From positions 1 through 22,528 of the IMG/VR virus record IMGVR_UViG_3300047444_000100: DNA of 22,528 nucleotides; one strand, written 5' to 3'. Below are positions 2,892 through 21,992 of this stretch, piece after piece; within the stretch, counting starts at the first letter, position 1, and every line of letters starts with the position of its first letter. The position numbers were made by a program, and so were the translations under genes. The notes beneath the pieces were generated by a model. The model was not told where the DNA came from, ran no database searches, and was given only the letters and a program-made list of their open reading frames with translations. The stretch comes from a virus.

Positions 2892-3680
2892 TTACCGAAC
2901 AGCCGCTAAAAGTTCGTCATCGGACAGGTGGGCGTACCGGAGCGTGGTCTTCACGTTCTTGTGTCCCAGGAGCTTCTGCACGATCACCACGTTCTTGGTC
3001 TTAGCCAAGGTCCTGGTGGCAGCGGTGTGCCTCAGGGTGTGCAGAACGAAGTCATCGTCAGCCTCGAGGTCCATAGCTTCCTTCAGACGACTCCAAACGG
3101 CCCTGAGGTGCCCGAGGTTGACATCGAACACACCTTTTGTAAGCGCTTCCTTAGCACGCTCAGACAGCGGGATCGACCTAGCACCTTTGGTCTTCGAAGT
3201 CCACAGGCGAACCCAGTCCCCATCGACATCCTTCTCCTTCAGTGCCAAAAGTTCCCCTCGGCGCATCCCAGTGTCGATGAGGACCGTAATGAACCTTGCA
3301 ATCTCATGCTCATTCCACGATGTGAGAAGAGCCAGCATCTGGGATTCCTCGGCCTCGCTGATCCAACGGACCCTTGAGTTGTCCTCGGACTTCCAGGTGA
3401 CCTTGGGCATCTTGTTGATCCAGTCACGATCCATGGCGTACTTCAGAACACTGTGGACGTTGGTCAGCTTGCGGTTGATCGTGCTGTCCTTCAGCACCCC
3501 CTCCATGGAATCCACGAAGGCATCGATGTGGATCGTCTTCACATCTTTGAGCGGAAGGTCACCGACACAGGCGATGAAAGCCTCTACGTTCGTGATGGCG
3601 GTCGAACAGTAAGCCTTACCGAGCCACAGGGGCTTCTTGGCGATCTGAAGGAGTTCCTTAAGAGTCGTAGGGGCTTTCAT
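2892..3680 (-). CDS. int: Tyrosine recombinase (phage integrase family)
   Basis: A 262-aa site-specific recombinase, short but complete. Residues 1-95 resemble a SAM-like core-binding domain. The catalytic domain has Arg140 (TGMRRGELLAL), Lys163 or Lys165 (TSKTKGARSIPL), His214-x-x-Arg217 (LHTLRHTAAT), His240 (LLGHKNVKTT) and the nucleophile Tyr249 (RYAH). The N-terminal arm-binding domain of larger integrases seems absent, so it is nearer XerC/D-like size. The ATG at 3680 follows GGAGGT. It lies beyond the terminator of the replication operon and has its own promoter. With parA and an iteron origin nearby it may resolve multimers or integrate the element; no clear attP was found beside it. 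Confidence 0.93.
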   Translation of the reverse strand: MKAPTTLKELLQIAKKPLWLGKAYCSTAITNVEAFIACVGDLPLKDVKTIHIDAFVDSMEGVLKDSTINRKLTNVHSVLKYAMDRDWINKMPKVTWKSEDNSRVRWISEAEESQMLALLTSWNEHEIARFITVLIDTGMRRGELLALKEKDVDGDWVRLWTSKTKGARSIPLSERAKEALTKGVFDVNLGHLRAVWSRLKEAMDLEADDDFVLHTLRHTAATRTLAKTKNVVIVQKLLGHKNVKTTLRYAHLSDDELLAAVR

Positions 3681-9118: not shown

Positions 9119-9274
9119 TTATTTAAGGTTCAGTTCGTCTTGTTCGTCCACGAGGTACTCATCAACGTCAAACGCGTTGGGCACTGTGGAGAACCCGAGG
9201 ATCAGGCCGATACCGATGACAGCCGATGCAGCCATGACAAGCACTGTGGTAATGATGATTCCGAGGATGTCCAT
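9119..9274 (-). CDS. Small single-pass membrane protein (51 aa)
   Basis: A 51-aa ORF in the gap between the RNA-ligase-like gene and DNA polymerase. Residues 3-29 (ILGIIITTVLVMAASAVIGI and on) form one long hydrophobic helix, followed by a short acidic cytoplasmic-type tail (VDEYLVDEQDELNLK). AAAGGAAC precedes the ATG, which overlaps the upstream stop (TAATG); the polymerase start follows 8 nt after its stop. Size and topology would allow a holin-like or membrane-anchoring role, but neither is shown. Confidence 0.7.
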   Translation of the reverse strand: MDILGIIITTVLVMAASAVIGIGLILGFSTVPNAFDVDEYLVDEQDELNLK

Positions 9275-9867
9275 TACGTTCCTTTAGGTTGGTGGTCGTT
9301 CTCGAGGAGGACCTTGAAGTTCTGTTGCGATGCGGTGTGGTACACGATGATTCCCTCGGGCTTCATGAACCCGGGGACCGCCATGCTTCCGAACTCGCTG
9401 AGGTTGTCCAGCGCAAACTGTGACTCTTGCATCGGGCCAACGGACAGCACAGGGACCACTTCGCAGCAGGCCGGGGTGTTTGGGTTGTGAGCGCCCCAAC
9501 GGGCCGTGTTGAACAGGGCGAATCGCTTGTGGTCGAGGCCGTAACCGCGTTGGATACCTTGGCCGTACCACTCACCGAAGTGCTGGCCTTCGCCGAGCTT
9601 GAAGAGTTCTTCAGCGTTCTCCTTGCACCAGCCAGCGAACCCGTAGTTGTCCGTGGTCTTCCCTGGGGTGATCCAACGGGTCCGTGAGCCGACTCGCATG
9701 GCGAAGAACCCCTGGGCGTCGAACAGGGTCGCAACGACGTTGGGGTCCATGCGGTCCTCGATGGTCCCCTTGGTGATCACCACCTGGGCGTTCGTGCCAT
9801 CCAGCTTCTCGGTGATCACGATGTCCCGCTTCAGACGGGGGGTCTTGGGGTACGGTGTGAATTCCAT
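9274..9867 (-). CDS. RNA/DNA ligase-like nucleotidyltransferase
   Basis: A 197-aa protein of the covalent nucleotidyltransferase ligase superfamily. Motif I is ITEKLDGTNAQV with the adenylated Lys at residue 21. Further candidates are FGEWYGQGIQRGYG (motif III), EGIIVYHT (motif IV) and NFKVLLEND (motif V). It is small and lacks any added C-terminal domain, like minimal RNA-ligase-family proteins of phages. It could seal RNA or nicked DNA during replication; the family alone does not decide. I start at 9867, where AAAGAGAGAGAT directly precedes the ATG; a longer reading from 9975 overlaps the helicase gene and lacks a site. Confidence 0.78.
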   Translation of the reverse strand: MEFTPYPKTPRLKRDIVITEKLDGTNAQVVITKGTIEDRMDPNVVATLFDAQGFFAMRVGSRTRWITPGKTTDNYGFAGWCKENAEELFKLGEGQHFGEWYGQGIQRGYGLDHKRFALFNTARWGAHNPNTPACCEVVPVLSVGPMQESQFALDNLSEFGSMAVPGFMKPEGIIVYHTASQQNFKVLLENDHQPKGT

Positions 9868-9889
9868 ATCTCTCTCTTTAGGTGAAGCG

Positions 9890-11509
9890 TTAAAATGTGT
9901 AAGCCTCAGGGTCTGCCTCAGGCGTGAAGTCACTTTGTTTGTCGAATAGGCGACCTGTGATCCGGTCGTACCCAAGCTTGATCAGGGTTCCTGTAGCGGC
10001 TCCCGTGAATCTGTCCTTCAGAACTCGAAGGGTCGTTGTGTTGCGTTCCTCAGGGTCTTCGCTTTGTTGATTACGCTCAAGGCCTAGCATCAGAAAAGAC
10101 CAAAATCCTATGGAGCGGGATCCCTTGAAAGACTTGATGGATACAGCACCTCCTTCCTCATGGGATTTCCCCTCAGGAGTGCTAAGGTGAGAGATTAAAT
10201 GAACGATGATCTTTAGTTCGTTAGCCAACCCTGCAACTTCTTTCATCAAGGTCTCAAGGGACTCCCGCTCGTTTGAGGTATCTGCCATCGCGGTTAAATT
10301 ATCGACGTAGAAGACACGGACTTCCTCAGCGTGAGCCATGAAGCGAATCTTTGCTGCTACTACGTCCCACTCGGTTTCGCCGAATGAGTCGTACATCACG
10401 ACCTTACCATCCAGCCCTTGTACAGCAGCCACACGCTCCTCTCTGGTCCAACTCCCATCAGGCACATGGAACCTACGGCCTGCGATCTTCCCAGCGAGGC
10501 GTGTAACGGTCTCAGCGGGGCGTTGCTCAAGGAACACAAGCCCAACCTTCAACTTCAGTTCTTCAAGGTCATACGCTGCCTGTTGTAGAACGAAGTCTGT
10601 CTTGCCGATACCAGTCCCCGCACCGATGGTGTAGACCTCCCCATACCGGCGACCATAGGTAACCTCGGACAACTTCGGGATGAACCAGGGCAACCCATGG
10701 GTAACATCTCGGTCGAGTTCTCCTATGACATCGGAGACACCTACGATCCCGTCAGGGCGGTACGAACGAGCATTCCAAATCGCTTGGATTACCTCTGCGC
10801 CTTTGCCCTGTTTCAAACACTCATTCGGGTCTTTGTATGGGAATGTAGCTATCTTGCAGTGACCCGGTGCGAACATCTCAGCCACTTCTTGTGCAGCCTT
10901 CTGCCCTGGTCCATCCATGTCGAAGGCCAACACGATTTCATCGAACTGCTCAAAGAACTCCATCTGACGAGCGATGTCTCGCTTTGCACCTTGGGCACCA
11001 TTAGGCACTGAGACTACCGGCCAACGATTCCCTTGAAGCTGGCTAATCGTCAAGCAGTCAATCTCACCTTCCGTTACGACTAACTTCTTACCCTTCGGCC
11101 ACAAGTGCTGACCGAAGCACGGGGGGTGTTTAGCGTCACCGAGGAACTTGAACTCTTTGTCCTGTCCTCGGGTTTTCATGGCAACAACCGTCCCATCTTT
11201 CACATATGGGTACATGTGAACAGTCTTACCGCTAACCTGCCCTACTCGAACCCCAAAGAACCTACAGGTCTCCTCGCTGATAAGACGGGCAGGGAGTCCC
11301 TTTACGTCTGCTTCTTTGTACTCTTTCAAATCTTCTGACACGGTTCTTCCTTTTCGGGTTTGTGTAACTTCACCTTCGCCGTGTTCTCGATATGAGCAGC
11401 CAAAGCAAAACGCGTGTCCGTCTGAATAACGGGCTAGGTTGTCTTTCGAACCGCACTCAGGGCACGATTCCTTCCTCACGAAGTTGCTCTCGGAGCCATC
11501 GTGTGACAC
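9890..11509 (-). CDS. T7 gp4-like DNA primase-helicase
   Basis: A 539-aa bifunctional replisome protein. Zn-finger Cys16, 19, 35, 38 (CPECGSKDNL...FCFGC) reads primase start sites. TOPRIM residues are E147 (VVTEGEID) and D197/D199 (AFDMDG). The RecA-like helicase has Walker A at 296-304 (GAGTGIGKT), YVDN as Walker B, and LISHLSTPEG/GSRSIGFWSF as later motifs. I propose GTG at 11509: GGAGG lies 9 nt upstream, and the resulting start (VSHDGSES) lines up with the SHDSDS start of T7 gp4. The ATGs at 11560 and 11533 lie deeper in the HNH gene. With this start the overlap with the HNH gene is 53 nt. Confidence 0.95.
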   Translation of the reverse strand: MSHDGSESNFVRKESCPECGSKDNLARYSDGHAFCFGCSYREHGEGEVTQTRKGRTVSEDLKEYKEADVKGLPARLISEETCRFFGVRVGQVSGKTVHMYPYVKDGTVVAMKTRGQDKEFKFLGDAKHPPCFGQHLWPKGKKLVVTEGEIDCLTISQLQGNRWPVVSVPNGAQGAKRDIARQMEFFEQFDEIVLAFDMDGPGQKAAQEVAEMFAPGHCKIATFPYKDPNECLKQGKGAEVIQAIWNARSYRPDGIVGVSDVIGELDRDVTHGLPWFIPKLSEVTYGRRYGEVYTIGAGTGIGKTDFVLQQAAYDLEELKLKVGLVFLEQRPAETVTRLAGKIAGRRFHVPDGSWTREERVAAVQGLDGKVVMYDSFGETEWDVVAAKIRFMAHAEEVRVFYVDNLTAMADTSNERESLETLMKEVAGLANELKIIVHLISHLSTPEGKSHEEGGAVSIKSFKGSRSIGFWSFLMLGLERNQQSEDPEERNTTTLRVLKDRFTGAATGTLIKLGYDRITGRLFDKQSDFTPEADPEAYTF

Positions 11510-15040: not shown

Positions 15041-17521
15041 TTAAGCGAAGGCGAACGAAGAATCAAGCACCGACGACAGGTCGAAGGAGCCGCGTTGGGG
15101 AATTCCCAACTCCTTGATTTCCTTGATGGTCGTGGTGATCTTCTTCAACACCTTCACGTCCGTCTCAGCACGGGCAACTTCCAGCAGGTCTTCGGCCACA
15201 CGCTCCGTGATCTGCTCCAGCGGAGACATCGTCTCGTACATCTGGACGAACGTCTCGCGGACCAACTTCGAGAAGCGTGGCATATGGTTCGGAAGGGACG
15301 CAAAGGAGTCGTGAATCATCAGGAACTCTTCGATGCCTTCGTTCACCGCAGCAACGGCCACGCTCTGCAAGTGAGCCGCATCCATCGAGTGGATGAAGTT
15401 CGGGGCGATACTGTTGCGCTGCTTAGGCTGGTCCAACTGGTTCGTCGGAGCCAAGGGAATAGTCGCCTGCTGCATGACCATGACGTTCTGCGCTTTACTC
15501 CACACTTCACAACGAACAACCTTAGTCGGAATCGTACGATAGGCGTTCTCAACGTACAGTCCCATATGCGTTTCCCAACGGATCGAGACATTGTGCCGGG
15601 CGCTCTTGCTAGCCAAATCCTGCAGGTACTTCATCGCAGAGGCAGCAGCCGGGACCGTGGTCGCAACCGCTTCTTCGATCAGGCCAGCAAGGAACTCAGC
15701 GTGCTTCGAGTACGACTTCTCGTCTTCCTTATCCGAACCAAATACAGCCTTGCCAGCATCCTTGCGGATGATGTCGGTCACCAACTGCTTACGGAACCCT
15801 TGCTTACGTGAGCCGTACACATAGGTCATCACAGCACGCTTGGTCACCTTGCGGTCGATACCATACTTCAGCCACAGGGCTGCAGATTCGGCTACCTCAG
15901 GGTCGTTGAGGGCTTCCTGTACCTTGGGGACCACGAGGCCTGCCACGTACGCATAGACGTCCTGGGAAGCGTCTCCCGGTACCAAGTTGACTCGGGTAGC
16001 CCCTTGGACATCGCGGAGCATTGCGCTGTAGTGCTGCAGCCCCGAGCAGGAACCATCGATAGCCACGAAAGTGCGGCTGATGTGGTTCACCGGGTCTGCA
16101 TAGTAACCGGCGAGGTCGAAGCATGCAGCCAAGAAACAGAACGGGCTGTCCGCAACCATCCACAGGTCCATGGTTTCCAATGGGTCCATGGCGATGTCCA
16201 TGATGTCTGACAGGTTCGCATCGGTCCACGCTACACGCTTCTCGAAGGCCATCTTGTCGAGGGCAACACCATCGATCTTCTGAGCGTTGGTTGTAGCTGC
16301 GTGCCACTTGAGCCATTCGACACCATCAGCGTTCAGCTTCTGTCCTACTGCGGATTCAAACAAACCCTTACAGTAATCCGATCGTTGGTGATTGAACCCG
16401 GGAACCGCATACACACGGCCACGGAAGTCCACCTGTGCGGGCTGGAACATTGCGCCACCAAGATACCGGTCGACAACCGATAGGTCACGGCGGATGGCTG
16501 CACGCTTCGAACGGGCTGAAACGAAGTCCTTGCGCTTCATCCCTTTGACGGGACGGGCAGGAATCTTCTCACCAACCGCAATGTCATTCTCCCAGACATG
16601 CTTAAGAACTCCGAGGACTCGCTCGTTGATCTGTAAGGCAACCTTTTGGATAGCATTGACAGCTTGGACGAACGGCGCATCGTTCTGGATTGCCTCGCCG
16701 ACAGCGCCAATCTGACGCTTGCTTCGGGACTTCATGAACGGGAGACGCTCGGCCAGTTCTCGGGCCTTGTATGCACCAGTGTGGTAGTTGGTCCATGGGG
16801 TTGGCTGGTCACGCATGGCTTGAAACTCAGGTGCCATGTACTGTTGAAGCTCGACCACCGTCTCGATGGCCTCAAGGGCCTCAGGGGTGAACAGGAAGGT
16901 CCGAAGACCATTCTCGTCAACCGCCTCAACATCCCCCAATTCCGCACCCTCACGACTGGTGTAGAACAGGTGGGTGCCCTTGATAGCCATGTTCGCAAAG
17001 CAACGGCCAAGTTGGAATCGCTTGGTCTCGTCGAACGCCTCTTGGCCGTCCAACTTGCGGAACTGCTCAATACGAGCATCGCGACCATGGTGGTCCCTAA
17101 CTTCCCACTTCGTGATTTCCTTGTATTCCTCGGGGAAATTCTCACGAACCCGTACGGCCAGCATTTCGATCTCGATCTCTTCACCGAGTTTGCGGAACAC
17201 ATTAGCCACCGGCTCCTGAGCACCCGCACCTACACAGCACGTCTTAAGTGTGTGGGCAGCGAGGCGTTCAAGGTCAACAGCACGGAGCGCCTCGACATCG
17301 GTCGAAGGGCGACCACGCTTGTTCAGGTTGGCATCAATATAGGCTACCCGAATGGCACTAAGGACTTCCTCGAAATACGAGTGGAAGACCTTGCCTTGTG
17401 CTTGGGTCAGTTCTCCTGCATCGGCTGCAGCCCGATCTGCATTGTGGTAACGCTCAAAGCCTCGCTCATACATCATCGCTTCAGCTTCAGCATTGGTCAT
17501 CAGGGCTTTAGTCGCTTTCAT
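15041..17521 (-). CDS. T7-like single-subunit RNA polymerase
   Basis: An 826-aa DNA-directed RNA polymerase of the T7 type. Landmarks in order: DFRGR at about residue 365, DGSCSGLQHYSAML (palm, first catalytic Asp), KRAVMTYVYGSRKQGFRKQL (O/B helix with catalytic Lys and Tyr), SIAPNFIHSMDAAHLQ, IHDSFASLP (second catalytic Asp), and the terminal FAFA foot. All catalytic residues are kept. The start is the fifth codon of the open frame, ATG 17521, because GGAGAGAG precedes it. It is the first gene of the leftward operon, behind a strong host-type promoter, and should transcribe the rest from phage promoters. It is about 60 aa shorter than T7 gp1. Confidence 0.97.
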   Translation of the reverse strand: MKATKALMTNAEAEAMMYERGFERYHNADRAAADAGELTQAQGKVFHSYFEEVLSAIRVAYIDANLNKRGRPSTDVEALRAVDLERLAAHTLKTCCVGAGAQEPVANVFRKLGEEIEIEMLAVRVRENFPEEYKEITKWEVRDHHGRDARIEQFRKLDGQEAFDETKRFQLGRCFANMAIKGTHLFYTSREGAELGDVEAVDENGLRTFLFTPEALEAIETVVELQQYMAPEFQAMRDQPTPWTNYHTGAYKARELAERLPFMKSRSKRQIGAVGEAIQNDAPFVQAVNAIQKVALQINERVLGVLKHVWENDIAVGEKIPARPVKGMKRKDFVSARSKRAAIRRDLSVVDRYLGGAMFQPAQVDFRGRVYAVPGFNHQRSDYCKGLFESAVGQKLNADGVEWLKWHAATTNAQKIDGVALDKMAFEKRVAWTDANLSDIMDIAMDPLETMDLWMVADSPFCFLAACFDLAGYYADPVNHISRTFVAIDGSCSGLQHYSAMLRDVQGATRVNLVPGDASQDVYAYVAGLVVPKVQEALNDPEVAESAALWLKYGIDRKVTKRAVMTYVYGSRKQGFRKQLVTDIIRKDAGKAVFGSDKEDEKSYSKHAEFLAGLIEEAVATTVPAAASAMKYLQDLASKSARHNVSIRWETHMGLYVENAYRTIPTKVVRCEVWSKAQNVMVMQQATIPLAPTNQLDQPKQRNSIAPNFIHSMDAAHLQSVAVAAVNEGIEEFLMIHDSFASLPNHMPRFSKLVRETFVQMYETMSPLEQITERVAEDLLEVARAETDVKVLKKITTTIKEIKELGIPQRGSFDLSSVLDSSFAFA

Positions 17522-17536
17522 AACTCTCTCCAAACA

Positions 17537-18056: not shown

Positions 18057-19049
18057 ATGAGAGATGTAGTCGTACCCAACATTCAGAGGAAGACCGATAG
18101 TCTCCTCACGCAGTACCCTGAGGTCGAAGCGTTCACCAAGCAGCAACTGAGCATCTTCTGGTTGCCTGATGAAGTGAAGGTCGAGAAGGATGTCCAGGAT
18201 GTCCTGGTCAACATGACCCCCGCTGAGAAGCATGGTGTAACGACCGTGCTCAAACTCTTCACCCAGTACGAACTAAAGGCTGGTGCTGAATACTGGACTG
18301 GTCGATTCAAACGGAAGTTTCCTCGGCCTGAGTTCCAAGAGATGGCTGCGACGTTCGGTATGTTCGAACTGGCTATCCACAAACGGTTCTACCAGAAGAT
18401 CAACGAACTGCTATTCCTGCACACCGATGAGTTCTATGGGTCCTATGGTGAAGACCCGGTACTCGCTGAACGTATGAAGTACATCGATGATGTGGTCTCA
18501 CATCCCAACGATCTGGTCTCCCTAGCAGGGTTTGCCTTGGTCGAAGGTGCGATCCTCTATTCGTCCTTCGCGTTCCTGAAGCACTTCCAGCAGCAAGGTA
18601 AGAACAAGCTCCTCAATCTGGTCCGAGGTATCAACTTCTCGGTACGTGATGAGAACCTGCATTCCATGGCTGGTGCTTGGGTCTTCAAGAAGCTGCTCGA
18701 GGAGACCAAGGGTTCCCCTGAGTACCTTGATGACATCGAGGACCGTGTCTATGCGATGGCCCATGCGCTGTACGCTCATGAATGCCGGATCGTGGACATG
18801 ATCTTCGACCAAGGCCCGATTGATGGTATCAATGCGGATCAACTGAAGAACTTCGTCGCCTCACGCCTTAATGCGGTCTTGGAGAGCCTGGGGTACACCC
18901 CAGAGTTCATCCTCACCGAAAACTCCATTGCTGAATGGTTCTACAAGGCCATCAACAGCTACACCTTTAACGATTTCTTTTCCGGCATGGGGTCGCAATA
19001 TCACAGGTCCTGGAGTGAGGAAGCATTCACATGGGACCTCCCAGCATGA
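18057..19049 (+). CDS. nrdB: Ribonucleotide reductase small (beta) subunit
   Basis: A 330-aa ferritin-like radical-generating subunit for a class I-type RNR, which supplies dNDPs or dNTPs. Candidate metal ligands: E72, E104/H108, E163, E199/H202 (RDENLHSMAG). The radical Tyr is probably Y112, four residues after H108 as in E. coli NrdB (FELAIHKRFYQ). The first pair reads E-x-x-x-H instead of the E. coli E-x-x-H, so either E104 binds metal from one residue further away or this is a family variant. It heads a rightward operon; nrdA starts inside its stop codon (ATGA). Confidence 0.94.
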   Translation: MRDVVVPNIQRKTDSLLTQYPEVEAFTKQQLSIFWLPDEVKVEKDVQDVLVNMTPAEKHGVTTVLKLFTQYELKAGAEYWTGRFKRKFPRPEFQEMAATFGMFELAIHKRFYQKINELLFLHTDEFYGSYGEDPVLAERMKYIDDVVSHPNDLVSLAGFALVEGAILYSSFAFLKHFQQQGKNKLLNLVRGINFSVRDENLHSMAGAWVFKKLLEETKGSPEYLDDIEDRVYAMAHALYAHECRIVDMIFDQGPIDGINADQLKNFVASRLNAVLESLGYTPEFILTENSIAEWFYKAINSYTFNDFFSGMGSQYHRSWSEEAFTWDLPA

Positions 19050-20743
19050 ATCTGTACGAACAACTGAGTGAGGAACGCAAGCAACTGCAGGCCGATGGTC
19101 TCGTACCAGAGTGGTACTCGACTTCAGGCTACCAGATGTTCAAGGACAAGTACGAGTATGATACTGATGGCCTATCGGTCAAAGGTCAGTTTAATCGTAT
19201 CGCCATCACCGCTGCGAAGCATATGCCCTTGGGCCTTAGGGACCTAGGATACGAATGGTTCTTCAGGCTCCTTTGGAACGGCTGGCTTTCCCCTTCAACC
19301 CCTATCCTCGCCAACATGGGAACAGACCGCGGTCTCCCTGTGTCGTGCTCGGGTGGAAAGATCGATGACTCAATCCATGGCTTCTATACGCACCGTCTTG
19401 AGACGGCTATGCTCACGAAGAACGGCTTTGGGACCTCAGGATACTTTGGTGACATCAGGCCTCGTGGAACGCCCATCAGTGTTGGCGGAAAGGCTAGTGG
19501 AGTCCTACCTGTCTTCACAGGACTCATCCGAGACATGCGAGATGTGGCTCAAGGTACTGCTAGGCGAGGAGCTTATGCAGGTTACCTACCAGTCATGCAT
19601 GGGGATTTCGATGAGGTCGCTGACTTCATCTACAACAATCCCGATGATGCAAACATTGGTTGGGTAGTTAATGATGAGTATGTGGCCCTGTTGAACACTG
19701 GGGACCCTGAGGCAACCCGTAGATTCCAGAAGATGCTCAAGCTGAAGATGGTCCACGGCAAAGGTTACTTCTTCTTTGTCGATAAGGCTAATCGTCATCG
19801 TCCTGATATGTACAAGGACCATGGTCTCAAGATCAACAATAGCAACCTGTGCAGTGAGATCATGCTCTTCAATGATGCTGACCACACTTTCACCTGTGTG
19901 CTTAGTTCGATGAACGTGGCTCGCTATGATGAGTGGAAGGATACCGATGCTGTCTATTGGGCCACATGGTTCCTCGACTGTGTAGCTGAGGAATTCATTC
20001 AGAAGGCCAAGGTAATCCCTGGTCTCGAGAATGCCGTACGGTTCACTGAGAAAGGTAGGGCATTAGGCCTCGGTCAGTGTGGTCTTCACACGTACCTGCA
20101 GATGAACTCGATCCCCTTCGAGGGCTTTCAGGCTCACATGAAGAACCTTGAGATTGCCCGGCATATCGATGACCACAGTCGCGATGCTTCAAAAGAGATG
20201 GCTAGGATTCTTGGGGAACCTGAGTGGTGCAAGGGCTATGGCCTGCGCAATACCCATCGTATCGCTATCGCTCCCACGAAGAGCACTGCGAATCTCATGG
20301 GTGGCGTGAGCGAAGGTATCAATCCCGATCCCGCGATGGTTTATACAACGAGCGGAGCCGCTGGTGAGATGGACCGTATCAATCCGGTACTCTTGAAGAT
20401 CATGAAGGCCCGTAGCGTCTATACGAAAGCTGTGGTGTCTGATCTTGCCGATAAGCAAGGTTCGGTACAGCATGTTGATTGGCTGGATGAGCACGAGAAG
20501 TCTGTGTTCAAGACCGCATTCGAGATAAACCAGGATGCTGTTCTGAGAATGGCAGGGACCCGTGGGAAGTTTGTTGACCAATGGCAATCCGTGAATCTGT
20601 TCTTCTCAGCTGATGAGGATGAGGCGTATATCGCTAAAATTCACCAGCAAGCTTTCCTAGACGAAAGTATACTTGCCTTGTACTACATTTATACCCAGAG
20701 TGGCGTTCAGGCTGCTAAGGGTGAATGTGAAGCCTGTCAATAA
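19046..20743 (+). CDS. nrdA: Ribonucleotide reductase large (alpha) subunit, compact form
   Basis: A 565-aa catalytic subunit. The redox and thiyl cysteines are C101 (LPVSCSG), C269 (SNLCSEI) and C284 (FTCVLSSMN); N267 and E271 complete the active site. PTKSTANLMGGVSEGINP is the phosphate-binding loop. Y546-Y547 take part in radical transfer, and the C-terminal pair C561/C564 (CEAC) accepts electrons. It is much shorter than E. coli NrdA (761 aa) and has no N-terminal ATP cone, so activity control by dATP is probably lost. I start at 19046, where ATG overlaps the nrdB stop. Confidence 0.95.
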   Translation: MNLYEQLSEERKQLQADGLVPEWYSTSGYQMFKDKYEYDTDGLSVKGQFNRIAITAAKHMPLGLRDLGYEWFFRLLWNGWLSPSTPILANMGTDRGLPVSCSGGKIDDSIHGFYTHRLETAMLTKNGFGTSGYFGDIRPRGTPISVGGKASGVLPVFTGLIRDMRDVAQGTARRGAYAGYLPVMHGDFDEVADFIYNNPDDANIGWVVNDEYVALLNTGDPEATRRFQKMLKLKMVHGKGYFFFVDKANRHRPDMYKDHGLKINNSNLCSEIMLFNDADHTFTCVLSSMNVARYDEWKDTDAVYWATWFLDCVAEEFIQKAKVIPGLENAVRFTEKGRALGLGQCGLHTYLQMNSIPFEGFQAHMKNLEIARHIDDHSRDASKEMARILGEPEWCKGYGLRNTHRIAIAPTKSTANLMGGVSEGINPDPAMVYTTSGAAGEMDRINPVLLKIMKARSVYTKAVVSDLADKQGSVQHVDWLDEHEKSVFKTAFEINQDAVLRMAGTRGKFVDQWQSVNLFFSADEDEAYIAKIHQQAFLDESILALYYIYTQSGVQAAKGECEACQ

Positions 20744-20758
20744 CTAAGAGAGACCATC

Positions 20759-20890
20759 ATGATCATCGTCGCACTTGCTGTTGCAGCACCCTTGTACTAC
20801 GTGGCCTCGAGGTACCGTAATGGTTCCACGGGATACTATGGCTGGGGATTCGTTGCGACCATGGTCGTGGCTGCTGGTATCTATCTGTGA
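20759..20890 (+). CDS. Small membrane protein (43 aa)
   Basis: A 43-aa ORF 15 nt behind nrdA with AAGAGAGACC just upstream of its ATG. It has two hydrophobic stretches (IIVALAVAAPLYYVA and WGFVATMVVAAGIYL) around a polar, Arg/Gly/Tyr-rich turn (SRYRNGSTGYYG), so a two-helix hairpin in the membrane is likely. Similar size and shape occur among phage holin-like and membrane accessory proteins. Function unknown. Confidence 0.6.
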   Translation: MIIVALAVAAPLYYVASRYRNGSTGYYGWGFVATMVVAAGIYL

Positions 20891-21096
20891 TTGGGTCCCC
20901 GAAGACTCCAGTGCAATGCTGGAGCCTCGTTTCCCTCATATCCCGAGGGATTCTGAGGATGTGTCTTGGCAAAAGGATTGGAAGTCTCCCTCTCTCCTTC
21001 TGGTCCTCCCAAGGCGCATCCTCAGAATTAGTCGAATTTGCTGGACCTTAGAAAGTTGCTTTTGAAACGCCCGTGGAAAAAACTGGAAAATTTTTT
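20891..21096 (+). other. Non-coding stretch after the nrd operon
   Basis: No convincing gene. A hairpin CTCCAG-TGCAATG-CTGGAG occurs at 20907-20925. A 49-aa frame from 20919 to 21065 lacks a ribosome binding site and is not counted. An A-rich segment (about 21076-21096) leads into the terminator. Confidence 0.5.
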
Positions 21097-21117
21097 AGGG
21101 GGTACCCCTCGTTTTTT
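21097..21117 (+). terminator. Rho-independent terminator of the nrdBA operon
   Basis: AGGGG-GTA-CCCCT followed by CG and six T. The stem is short (5 bp) but GC-rich and the U-tract is good. It would end the nrdB-nrdA-43-aa transcript. Confidence 0.55.
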
Positions 21118-21135: not shown

Positions 21136-21206
21136 TTGGCTGTCGTCTACGTTGGAAAGACAACTACCTCGGGTAGGAGACACTGGTTCGATTCCAGTTC
21201 AGCCTG
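21136..21206 (+). tRNA. tRNA-like element, degenerate, no normal anticodon loop
   Basis: A 71-nt partial cloverleaf. The T-arm is canonical: ACTGG-TTCGATT-CCAGT (21182-21198). The D-arm is good: GTCT-ACGTTGGAA-AGAC (21145-21161) with A14, G18-G19 and A21 equivalents and a T at the position of U8. The acceptor pairs GGCTG with CAGCC, with mismatches and one extra base. The anticodon arm is CTACC-TCG-GGTAG, a 3-nt loop where 7 are needed; the 5-nt variable loop is normal. No CCA is encoded. I read it as a decayed tRNA, a tRNA mimic or an att site derived from a tRNA; a functional tRNA is unlikely. Confidence 0.35.
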
Positions 21207-21437
21207 CTACACCCCTGTTTTTCCCCTATCTCTATCCCATTTCGGGTATAGATTCCCCCTGATTCGGACCTGGGTCGCACATAGCACCCTGCGGTACCCT
21301 CAGGAATACCGATTCCAGTCCCTGTAGCACGCCTAGAAACCGCTGGCGGGCATTTCACCTCCGGGTTTAACCCTTCGTTCCCTCCGGGCCGTTCTAGCGC
21401 CCCTGTAGCCATTCGGCTATCCATCGTTTTATCCCCC
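21207..21437 (+). other. Structured, C/T-rich non-coding stretch
   Basis: No gene is supported here. Several small palindromes occur: CTATCCC...GGGTATAG (about 21233-21252), GGGTTTAACCC (21363-21373) and a perfect TAGCC-ATTC-GGCTA hairpin (21406-21419) 18 nt before the HNH gene. CCTCCGGG occurs twice. This may be a folded 5' leader. Confidence 0.4.
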
Positions 21438-21929
21438 ATGACTACCAAAACAAACAGAGCCTTTGCTCAAAAGGCCATAGGTCACCTGTACAAACCGTAT
21501 GGTGACTCCCGTTCGTGCCTCTATTGCCAGTGCCGATACCCTGAACACAAAGACCATACGCCCGCACTAGCTCGCGTAATGGCTAGAGGTTCCCAGGCGT
21601 ACCGTGAGGCAAACATCCCATTGCTGCTAGTTCACGCCTGTGCTGAGTGCAACCTGAGCCTCAATGCAAGGCCTTTGGATACCCTGGAAGCTAGGACCGT
21701 ATGGCTATACAAGGACGTTCAGAAGAAACTACGTGCCAAGCGCCTATCAGGTGACTGGACACAGGACGAACTAAACGACCTGGGCAACACCTTGCGTTCC
21801 TTGGTCCAGGTACACACGAACAGACGTGACTACCTAATCGAACGCTTACAAGGCCTGAGCAACACCATCACCTTTTACGATGACGAAGGGTGGCCCAGTG
21901 CCTGTAGCACCGATGAGGTAGCTGTGTGA
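21438..21929 (+). CDS. HNH-type endonuclease-like protein
   Basis: A 163-aa protein with a zinc-binding treble-clef layout. CLYCQCRYPEHKDHTPALAR gives a Cys pair and a DH, and LLLVHACAECNLSLNARPLD gives a second Cys pair and the Asn of an HNH motif. The C-terminal half is helical and charged (LEARTVWLYKDVQKKLRAKR). The DH...C-x-x-CN order is found in small HNH proteins of phages, where they act as homing or packaging-associated nucleases. No good ribosome binding site precedes the ATG (TATCCCCC), which may follow from the folded leader. It is read rightward, opposite to its right-hand neighbours. Confidence 0.65.
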   Translation: MTTKTNRAFAQKAIGHLYKPYGDSRSCLYCQCRYPEHKDHTPALARVMARGSQAYREANIPLLLVHACAECNLSLNARPLDTLEARTVWLYKDVQKKLRAKRLSGDWTQDELNDLGNTLRSLVQVHTNRRDYLIERLQGLSNTITFYDDEGWPSACSTDEVAV

Positions 21930-21948
21930 TGGACCATACAAAGTAAAA

Positions 21949-21971
21949 AACCCCAGGGGTTACCTAGGGTT
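21949..21971. terminator. Bidirectional terminator between convergent genes
   Basis: A 9-bp stem with one G-U pair and a 5-nt loop lies between the rightward HNH gene and the leftward genes beyond. Read leftward, it runs straight into six T, a strong terminator. Read rightward, CTTTGGTTT follows, which is weaker. Confidence 0.7.
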
Positions 21972-21992
21972 CTTTGGTTTGTACGGTATCGA

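Follow-up and report, generated by a model that had tools for sequence, protein, structure and literature searches.

A tRNA-like cloverleaf with a three-base UCG loop at the anticodon position is encoded in a 22.5-kb phage fragment from an environmental sample (IMG/VR record IMGVR_UViG_3300047444_000100; the whole stretch of 22,528 nucleotides that was analyzed is referred to as the window). The initial annotation had noted such a cloverleaf from the sequence alone, and its presence at 21137-21209, including a loop that is four bases short, is confirmed. Our findings suggest that the tRNA shape is used here for a purpose other than protein synthesis, and we see about even chances that it is a gene of the phage whose product is a tRNA-shaped RNA without decoding function, most likely serving as a processing mark for RNase P. 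Phage tRNAs are usually ascribed to codon supply or to escape from tRNA-cleaving defences, and both functions need an anticodon loop. If our reading is true, a tRNA-like phage gene that keeps its fold without an anticodon loop across lineages would represent another use of the tRNA shape.

Fold and genomic setting of the tRNA-like element

All four arms of the tRNA family RF00005 (acceptor, D, anticodon and T) are present in the element (Table 1). The acceptor stem comprises five base pairs (GGCTG/CAGCC) with unpaired T.T positions at its outer and inner ends, the variable loop consists of five nucleotides (GAGAC), and the elbow residues, GG in the D-loop and TTC in the T-loop, are found in the window as well as in the element of a second lineage (locus L302, see below). 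The seven-base anticodon loop with U33 is absent and replaced by the three-base UCG, and CCA is not encoded (GCTA). In the place of CCA, L302 reads CTT and a further locus, L305, reads CTC.

Running the tRNA covariance model, as proposed in the initial annotation, gave a match of RF00005 to positions 21138-21205 with 23.7 bits, below the gathering score of 29, and with an E value of 0.62 against all 4227 families and of 1.4e-4 for the tRNA family alone in the record. ARAGORN at its standard setting called no tRNA at 21137-21209. A cloverleaf descriptor that admits anticodon-position loops of 3-9 bases found a single match, with a loop of three, on both strands of the window, and matches in none of 300 dinucleotide-shuffled windows. 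The tRNA-like cloverleaf with its CTACC-TCG-GGTAG arm therefore holds, and the combination that would have spoken against it, zero tRNA score together with no conservation in relatives, is not what was found. The cloverleaf (-19.9 kcal/mol) is not the minimum-energy fold (-21.0 kcal/mol), so free energy alone does not pick it out. For the anticodon arm on its own, five base pairs with a loop of three nucleotides amount to -5.1 kcal/mol as compared to +0.9 kcal/mol for a stem of three base pairs with a loop of seven.

Reading away from the polymerase gene, the two RNR genes are followed by an ORF for 43 amino acids, the structured RNA, a hairpin resembling a terminator, the tRNA-like element and finally an HNH-like ORF without a Pfam match. 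Both RNAs fall in the interval from the RNR genes to the tail genes. In the minus-strand block, Pfam models identify T7-type RNA polymerase, DNA polymerase A, primase-helicase, 5'-3' exonuclease and integrase, and PHROG profiles a ParA-like protein, a replication-initiator-like protein and an RNA ligase. Genes for the replication-initiator-like protein, the ParA-like protein and the integrase (398-1015, 1274-1975 and 2892-3680, all on the minus strand) co-occur with a T7-type RNA polymerase, which points to a temperate and possibly plasmid-forming phage. The combination of T7-type RNA polymerase and tyrosine integrase is shared with the temperate T7-like phages LUZ100 and pelagiphage HTVC019P, and the LUZ100 integrase is the first match listed for that of the window (35% identity). 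The window phage differs from both in its ParA-like and replication-initiator-like genes, in the large distance between the element and the integrase, and in its terminase, the best matches of which lie outside the T7-like phages. The terminase gene was taken from a sister contig behind locus L088, and we infer its place in the window's own phage from there. Relatives of this terminase (alignment A1) include one with 79% identity on a 47-kb contig of Caballeronia temeraria LMG 29319, and of all relatives found in named genomes a Caballeronia prophage is the closest. Among 299 genomes drawn from the family of C. temeraria, the Burkholderiaceae, a close terminase (E 1e-80) was found in C. temeraria only. 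On this sequence evidence the host of the phage is likely a member of the same bacterial family.

Table 1. Features of the window relevant to the tRNA-like element
Feature	Position	Strand	Evidence and remarks
Tyrosine integrase	2892..3680	-	PF00589, E 3.4e-21; ~17.5 kb from the tRNA-like element
RNA ligase	9274-9975	-	phrog_548, E 2.2e-26; homologs in several relatives
T7-type RNA polymerase	15041..17533	-	PF00940, E 6.1e-94; divergent from the RNR and tRNA-like region
RNR small and large subunit genes	18057..20743 (18057-19049, 19031-20743)	+	Upstream of the element and codirectional; same order in L302
Small ORF, 43 aa, hydrophobic by eye	20759..20890	+	Between RNR and structured RNA; similar small ORF in the relatives' alignment, by eye
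Structured RNA (model R2)	20892..21035	+	94.2 bits in the window; no Rfam family
Terminator-like hairpin AGGGG-GTA-CCCCT with T-run	21097..21117	+	Between structured RNA and tRNA-like element
tRNA-like element, 3-nt (UCG) anticodon-position loop	21137..21209	+	RF00005, 23.7 bits; identical in 4 further contigs
Acceptor stem, 5' strand	21138..21142	+	Pairs with 21200-21204; RF00005 alignment
D-arm GTCT-ACGTTGGAA-AGAC, 4-bp stem, 9-nt loop	21145..21161	+	A after the stem and GG residues kept
Anticodon arm CTACC-TCG-GGTAG, 5 bp and 3-nt loop	21164..21176	+	CCACC-TCG-GGTGG in L302
T-arm ACTGG-TTCGATT-CCAGT, perfect	21182..21198	+	RF00005 alignment, T-arm scan
Acceptor 3' strand CAGCC, then T and GCTA	21200..21209	+	GCTA where discriminator-CCA is expected
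HNH-like endonuclease ORF	21438..21929	+	phrog_2118, E 7.8e-4; phrog_36777, E 2.7e-6; downstream of the tRNA-like element
Strong hairpin	21945..21975	.	Between convergent + and - genes; terminator-like on the - strand

Copies and lineages of the element

The element occurs in identical form in four other contigs. In L088, about 680 bases corresponding to ~21253 to 21932 of the window and including the HNH-like ORF are replaced, and 127 bases spanning the element are 99% identical. L088 thus shows retention through a recombination but little divergence, and the copies in the window lineage, being near-identical, carry little information on selection.

A second lineage is represented by L302, located on the same contig as L366, and by L364, which stems from another sample and has an identical element. 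In aligned DNA, the RNR stretch of this lineage is 79-81% identical to that of the window. The L302 element reads CACCTGTCGTCTAGCGGAAAGACAACCACCTCGGGTGG..., follows the structured RNA and contains the same UCG triloop as the window; the stems of the D-arms are identical, and the arm at the anticodon position has changed from CTACC/GGTAG to CCACC/GGTGG. Over the four stems, six standard pairs of the window differ in L302, and five of these are still paired through changes on both sides (one in the acceptor, one in the anticodon and three in the T-stem), the remaining one being an acceptor pair that is broken in L302 (G-C to A.G). When 14 stem substitutions are placed at random, at least 19 of the 21 positions are paired with P ~7e-5 under a null of independent random substitutions without mutation bias and on a hand alignment. 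The pair table was made by hand and via the covariance model R1, because MAFFT (alignment A5) misplaced the anticodon arm of the window against L302. Alignment of the element between the window and the second lineage scores 27.5 (best of 1000 shuffles 6.1), and that of the downstream flank 3.9 versus at most 3.6 in 500 shuffles. Taken together, comparison of the sequences supports the fold, the position, the shared triloop, the compensatory change and the absence of a usable anticodon loop.

With model R1, L302 scores 46.6 bits, which is more than any Caballeronia control tRNA (best 34.9 bits for a tRNA-Val, 50 of 54 tRNA loci being searched). The 22 matches of R1 in 68 sources comprise five from the window lineage, three from the L302 lineage (L302, L364 and L366), L305 and 13 weaker ones, among them ordinary tRNAs; E values from the covariance models are rough owing to short calibration. 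With RF00005, none of the elements of L302, L364 and L305 reaches E 1. L305 (in G020) holds a tRNA-like sequence that starts with TGTCGTCTA as the window element does and has an anticodon arm of 17 nucleotides with a seven-base loop, GTG at the place of the anticodon, C33 and an A.C pair at the end of the stem. Since its R1 score of 32.9 bits is below the 34.9 bits of an ordinary tRNA-Val, the score alone cannot link L305 to the other elements, and the link consists in its position and the letters of its D-arm. In a three-row alignment fitted to the model, 96.4% of the cells pair, as compared to 82.6% upon shuffling (0 of 500).

Over 3.94 Mb of fetched loci, the descriptor gave 54 distinct matches, 44 of which have a loop of seven and three a loop of three; two of the latter are the lineages of this element and one is AT-rich and chance-like. 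The triloop is carried by two distinct sequences only. Sixty shuffled loci (0.74 Mb) yielded one match, with a loop of eight, and on Caballeronia tRNA loci (overlapping, with some repeats) the loop was seven in 75 of 77 matches. The 48 upstream regions of the polymerase relatives (A3) were scanned for T-arms and tRNAs, and a strict T-arm scan of 15 polymerase-to-tail regions was positive on the plus strand in five (window, G036, G032, G035 and G050) and on the minus strand in two. BLAST searches of phages and plasmids with the element returned short matches only, mostly to the T-arm and with E 0.2 or worse among the matches listed. The pattern GTCGTCTA...GGAAAGACA was present in 26 stretches of viral contigs, 20 of them outside the known lineages, and most of these 20 were without tRNA-like form by eye. 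Three of them, in unrelated viral contigs (L383, L384 and L385), look like other odd tRNAs with a GTCGTCTA...GGAAAGACA D-arm. Among the papers listed by literature searches, none described this tRNA-like element in its title or in the opening lines of its abstract.

The structured RNA and the arrangement of neighboring tRNAs

The structured RNA upstream of the element is built from hairpin 1 with the motif UGCAAYG, hairpin 2 and a long hairpin with a pyrimidine-rich tip. Among 74 sources, model R2 finds the RNA 38 times in sense orientation, with E values of 4e-17 or better, and gives 19 further weak matches on the opposite strand; the RNA is found in 34 of the 48 regions of polymerase relatives, the other 14 being mostly short or from distant phages. 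Covariation was counted on a set of 31 sense matches, each taken from a different chosen source and 25 of them distinct (A10). In this set 95.4% of the cells pair (72.7% when shuffled), 23 of 29 pairs exhibit two-sided change, and the covariation score is 0.726 versus 0.265 for shuffled alignments (0 of 500) and is lost when the partners are slid. The inner pairs of hairpin 1, with U-G in 21 of 25 and G-U in 11 of 25, identify the plus strand as the RNA strand. Rfam scans with E limits of 1 for the window and of 5 for the relatives matched no family to this RNA, the sole overlap being a microRNA family in L311 with 19.7 bits against a gathering score of 53. It is thus an RNA with strong covariation and without Rfam family that is widespread in the phage group, and it merits a study of its own. 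It resembles GOLLD and ROOL in being a phage RNA near tRNAs, GOLLD members often exceeding 800 nucleotides, and both families were absent from the Rfam scans of the window and its relatives. GOLLD and ROOL are described as phage structured RNAs of unknown function that often occur near tRNAs (PMC12286853). By eye, recurring RNA-like stretches were seen up to ~330 nucleotides 5' of the structured RNA in L302, L303, L307, L310, L311 and L324, reading CCGG...CCCGGC...GGGAAGC and GTCCC-hairpin-GGGTCG. Rfam scans of those in L303 and L311 gave nothing above the gathering score except a tRNA.

Judged by position in the DNA, a tRNA-like sequence lies directly 3' of another RNA, as in the mascRNA type, in three lineages, with a spacing to the structured RNA of 101 nucleotides in the window, 99 in L305 and 8 in L302. 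ARAGORN, on the other hand, called 13 tRNAs in 11 of the 34 regions with the structured RNA, all of them 43-320 nucleotides upstream of it (L294, L301 and L339 sharing one), and none downstream in the stretches available; runs at relaxed threshold, which make dozens of calls per region, were left out of these counts. Non-canonical tRNA-like sequences downstream of the structured RNA are present in four of the 34 regions, two of the window lineage, L302 and L305. Accordingly, the triloop form is found only 3' and the tRNAs called by ARAGORN only 5' of the structured RNA. Model R1 detected no tRNA-like sequence just 3' of the RNA in the other 30 regions, some of which (L298, L294) end soon after it, and the element is therefore not general in the phage group. 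Ordinary tRNAs near the locus in other members are those for Asn, Trp, Tyr, Gln and Asp.

Some tRNAs of the group are unusual in themselves. The upstream one on the contig of L302 (RF00005 match G369:26002-26102, 35.2 bits) stands out by a very long variable region, in which some 30 or more additional nucleotides are capable of forming a hairpin, and the second tRNA of L313 has an anticodon loop of about 4-8 nucleotides by different pairings. In the upstream tRNA of the C. temeraria prophage (G036:18949-19022) the anticodon loop counts six or eight nucleotides according to how the arm is paired, so unusual loops also occur outside the 3' place. In L303, L306 and L324, a UUCG- or GCAA-capped hairpin stands ~100 nucleotides after the structured RNA, that is at the place of the tRNA-like sequence, and may be a replacement RNA element.

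Proposed role and competing explanations

Selection probably maintains the fold for a function other than decoding. Decoding by the element is unlikely because U33 and the seven-base loop are absent and restoration of the loop would cost ~6 kcal/mol. We envisage that it originated from a phage or host tRNA, the seven-base anticodon loop of which became the UCG triloop and the CCA of which was lost, and that the acceptor/T-arm helix, the D-arm and the elbow-forming residues would have been retained from this ancestor. The parts that were kept (acceptor/T helix, T-loop and GG of the D-loop) correspond to the recognition set of RNase P and RNase Z, as in mascRNA, which favors a processing mark. 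Host RNase P would recognize the elbow and the acceptor/T helix and cut at ~21137. The cut would define where the structured RNA, or an RNR transcript that reads through, ends, and would separate both from what comes after. Cleavage would also release a small tRNA-like RNA, as mascRNA is released at the 3' end of MALAT1, and a second life of this RNA is conceivable. Transcription, RNase P cleavage and any later role of the element are what we infer from its form and place. To punctuation by RNase P specifically we assign somewhat less than an even chance. The wider notion that the phage possesses a module of a new structured RNA and a dedicated non-decoding tRNA mimic, matured by the tRNA-processing enzymes of the host and forming a bacterial counterpart of MALAT1/mascRNA, is put forward more tentatively still. 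Retention of the element in L088 despite replacement of the sequence downstream counts in favor of the processing mark. The terminator-like hairpin that precedes the element in the window is a point against it, as this hairpin could by itself terminate the structured RNA with no need for RNase P; in L302 the two RNAs are separated by just 8 nucleotides.

The mascRNA and menRNA family (RF01684), at the 3' ends of MALAT1 and MEN beta (NEAT1), shares with the phage element the tRNA-like fold, the elbow, a compact anticodon-side loop and the location 3' of another RNA. The two differ in that the one is human and the other from a bacteriophage, that the phage element has a full D-stem and that its processing is predicted by analogy. 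mascRNA combines the compact anticodon-side loop with a preserved elbow, is processed by RNase P and RNase Z, then receives CCA and is not aminoacylated (PMC11693755). RF01684 itself is not matched in the window (E limit 1), and has weak matches only on tRNAs of the relatives L202 and L394. With phage-encoded tRNAs (RF00005), including those of related phages, the element has the fold, the genomic neighborhood and a probable origin in common; it differs from them in its three-nucleotide loop, the lack of CCA, a score below the family cut-off and its location 3' rather than 5' of the structured RNA. A tRNA-mimicking part is also found in the bacterial Y RNA YrlA (RF02553). A scan of the window with an E limit of 1 gave no hit to this family, and the relative L313 a single weak one (21.1 bits versus 69) over its two tRNAs; among the matches listed for the 16 window ORFs searched there is no Ro60 family.

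The main rival reading, unlikely in our estimation, is that of a former tRNA gene in a tRNA-swapping phage region that lost its anticodon loop and is now drifting. It draws on the ordinary tRNAs near the locus in other members, some degenerate-looking neighbors in relatives, the lack of CCA, the mismatched acceptor ends and the sub-threshold tRNA score, and the near-identity of the window-lineage copies says little against it. The two lineages have the triloop in common and yet differ by compensatory changes, which is evidence against simple decay, and the element aligns far better than its flanks. Of the decayed tRNA considered in the initial annotation, descent from a tRNA is likely, and simple decay is less so. 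Among 47 Caballeronia tRNA sequences, Val(gac) scores highest with 61.5, ahead of a runner-up at 52.0, and the maximum over 200 shuffles is 47.5; it is the closest present tRNA, by which ancestry is not proven. An origin from tRNA-Gln, with a best score of 39.0, was rejected.

We regard it as improbable that the element is a tRNA mimic that titrates or signals to a tRNA-binding factor of the host (a synthetase, elongation factor, tRNA nuclease or modifying enzyme) and is not a cleavage mark. A mark for processing alone would presumably have little use for the anticodon-side stem, yet this stem is kept with compensatory change, and the phage encodes an RNA ligase; both points would suit such a role. 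No partner or target is indicated, however, and anticodon nucleases would presumably find no loop substrate. A tRNA mimic, as suggested initially, is therefore borne out in form by the kept cloverleaf, the missing usable anticodon loop and the triloop of the second lineage, and not with respect to a target of mimicry.

It is very improbable that the element is an attachment site, i.e. a phage copy of a host tRNA 3' half used by the integrase, although a tyrosine integrase is present and the element is tRNA-like. A search of host genomes with the 3' half as attB found the exact 23 bases in none of 84,980 species genomes (contigs of at least 3 kb), and the longest exact match among those listed for 299 genomes of the C. 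temeraria family is 19 bases. The integrase gene lies far away (Table 1), the contig of the Caballeronia prophage ends at host tRNA-Leu genes, and its own tRNA-like sequence is located between phage genes. The attachment site raised in the initial annotation is thereby largely refuted. At the right end of the prophage contig, NZ_FCOI02000046.1 (L213), two host tRNA-Leu(cag) genes lie beside an ORF that by eye resembles another integrase; the left junction was not found.

A minimal decoding tRNA with a three-base-pair stem, a seven-base CCUCGGG loop and a UCG anticodon (Arg, CGA codons) is scarcely credible: UCG is identical in both lineages and ARAGORN at relaxed threshold calls Arg(tcg), but this setting gives 34 tRNAs in the same 5-kb region, the refolding is costly in both sequences, C33 stands in place of U33 in an arm of 13 nucleotides, and CGA accounts for a non-dominant 53 of 353 Arg codons in 22 window ORFs.
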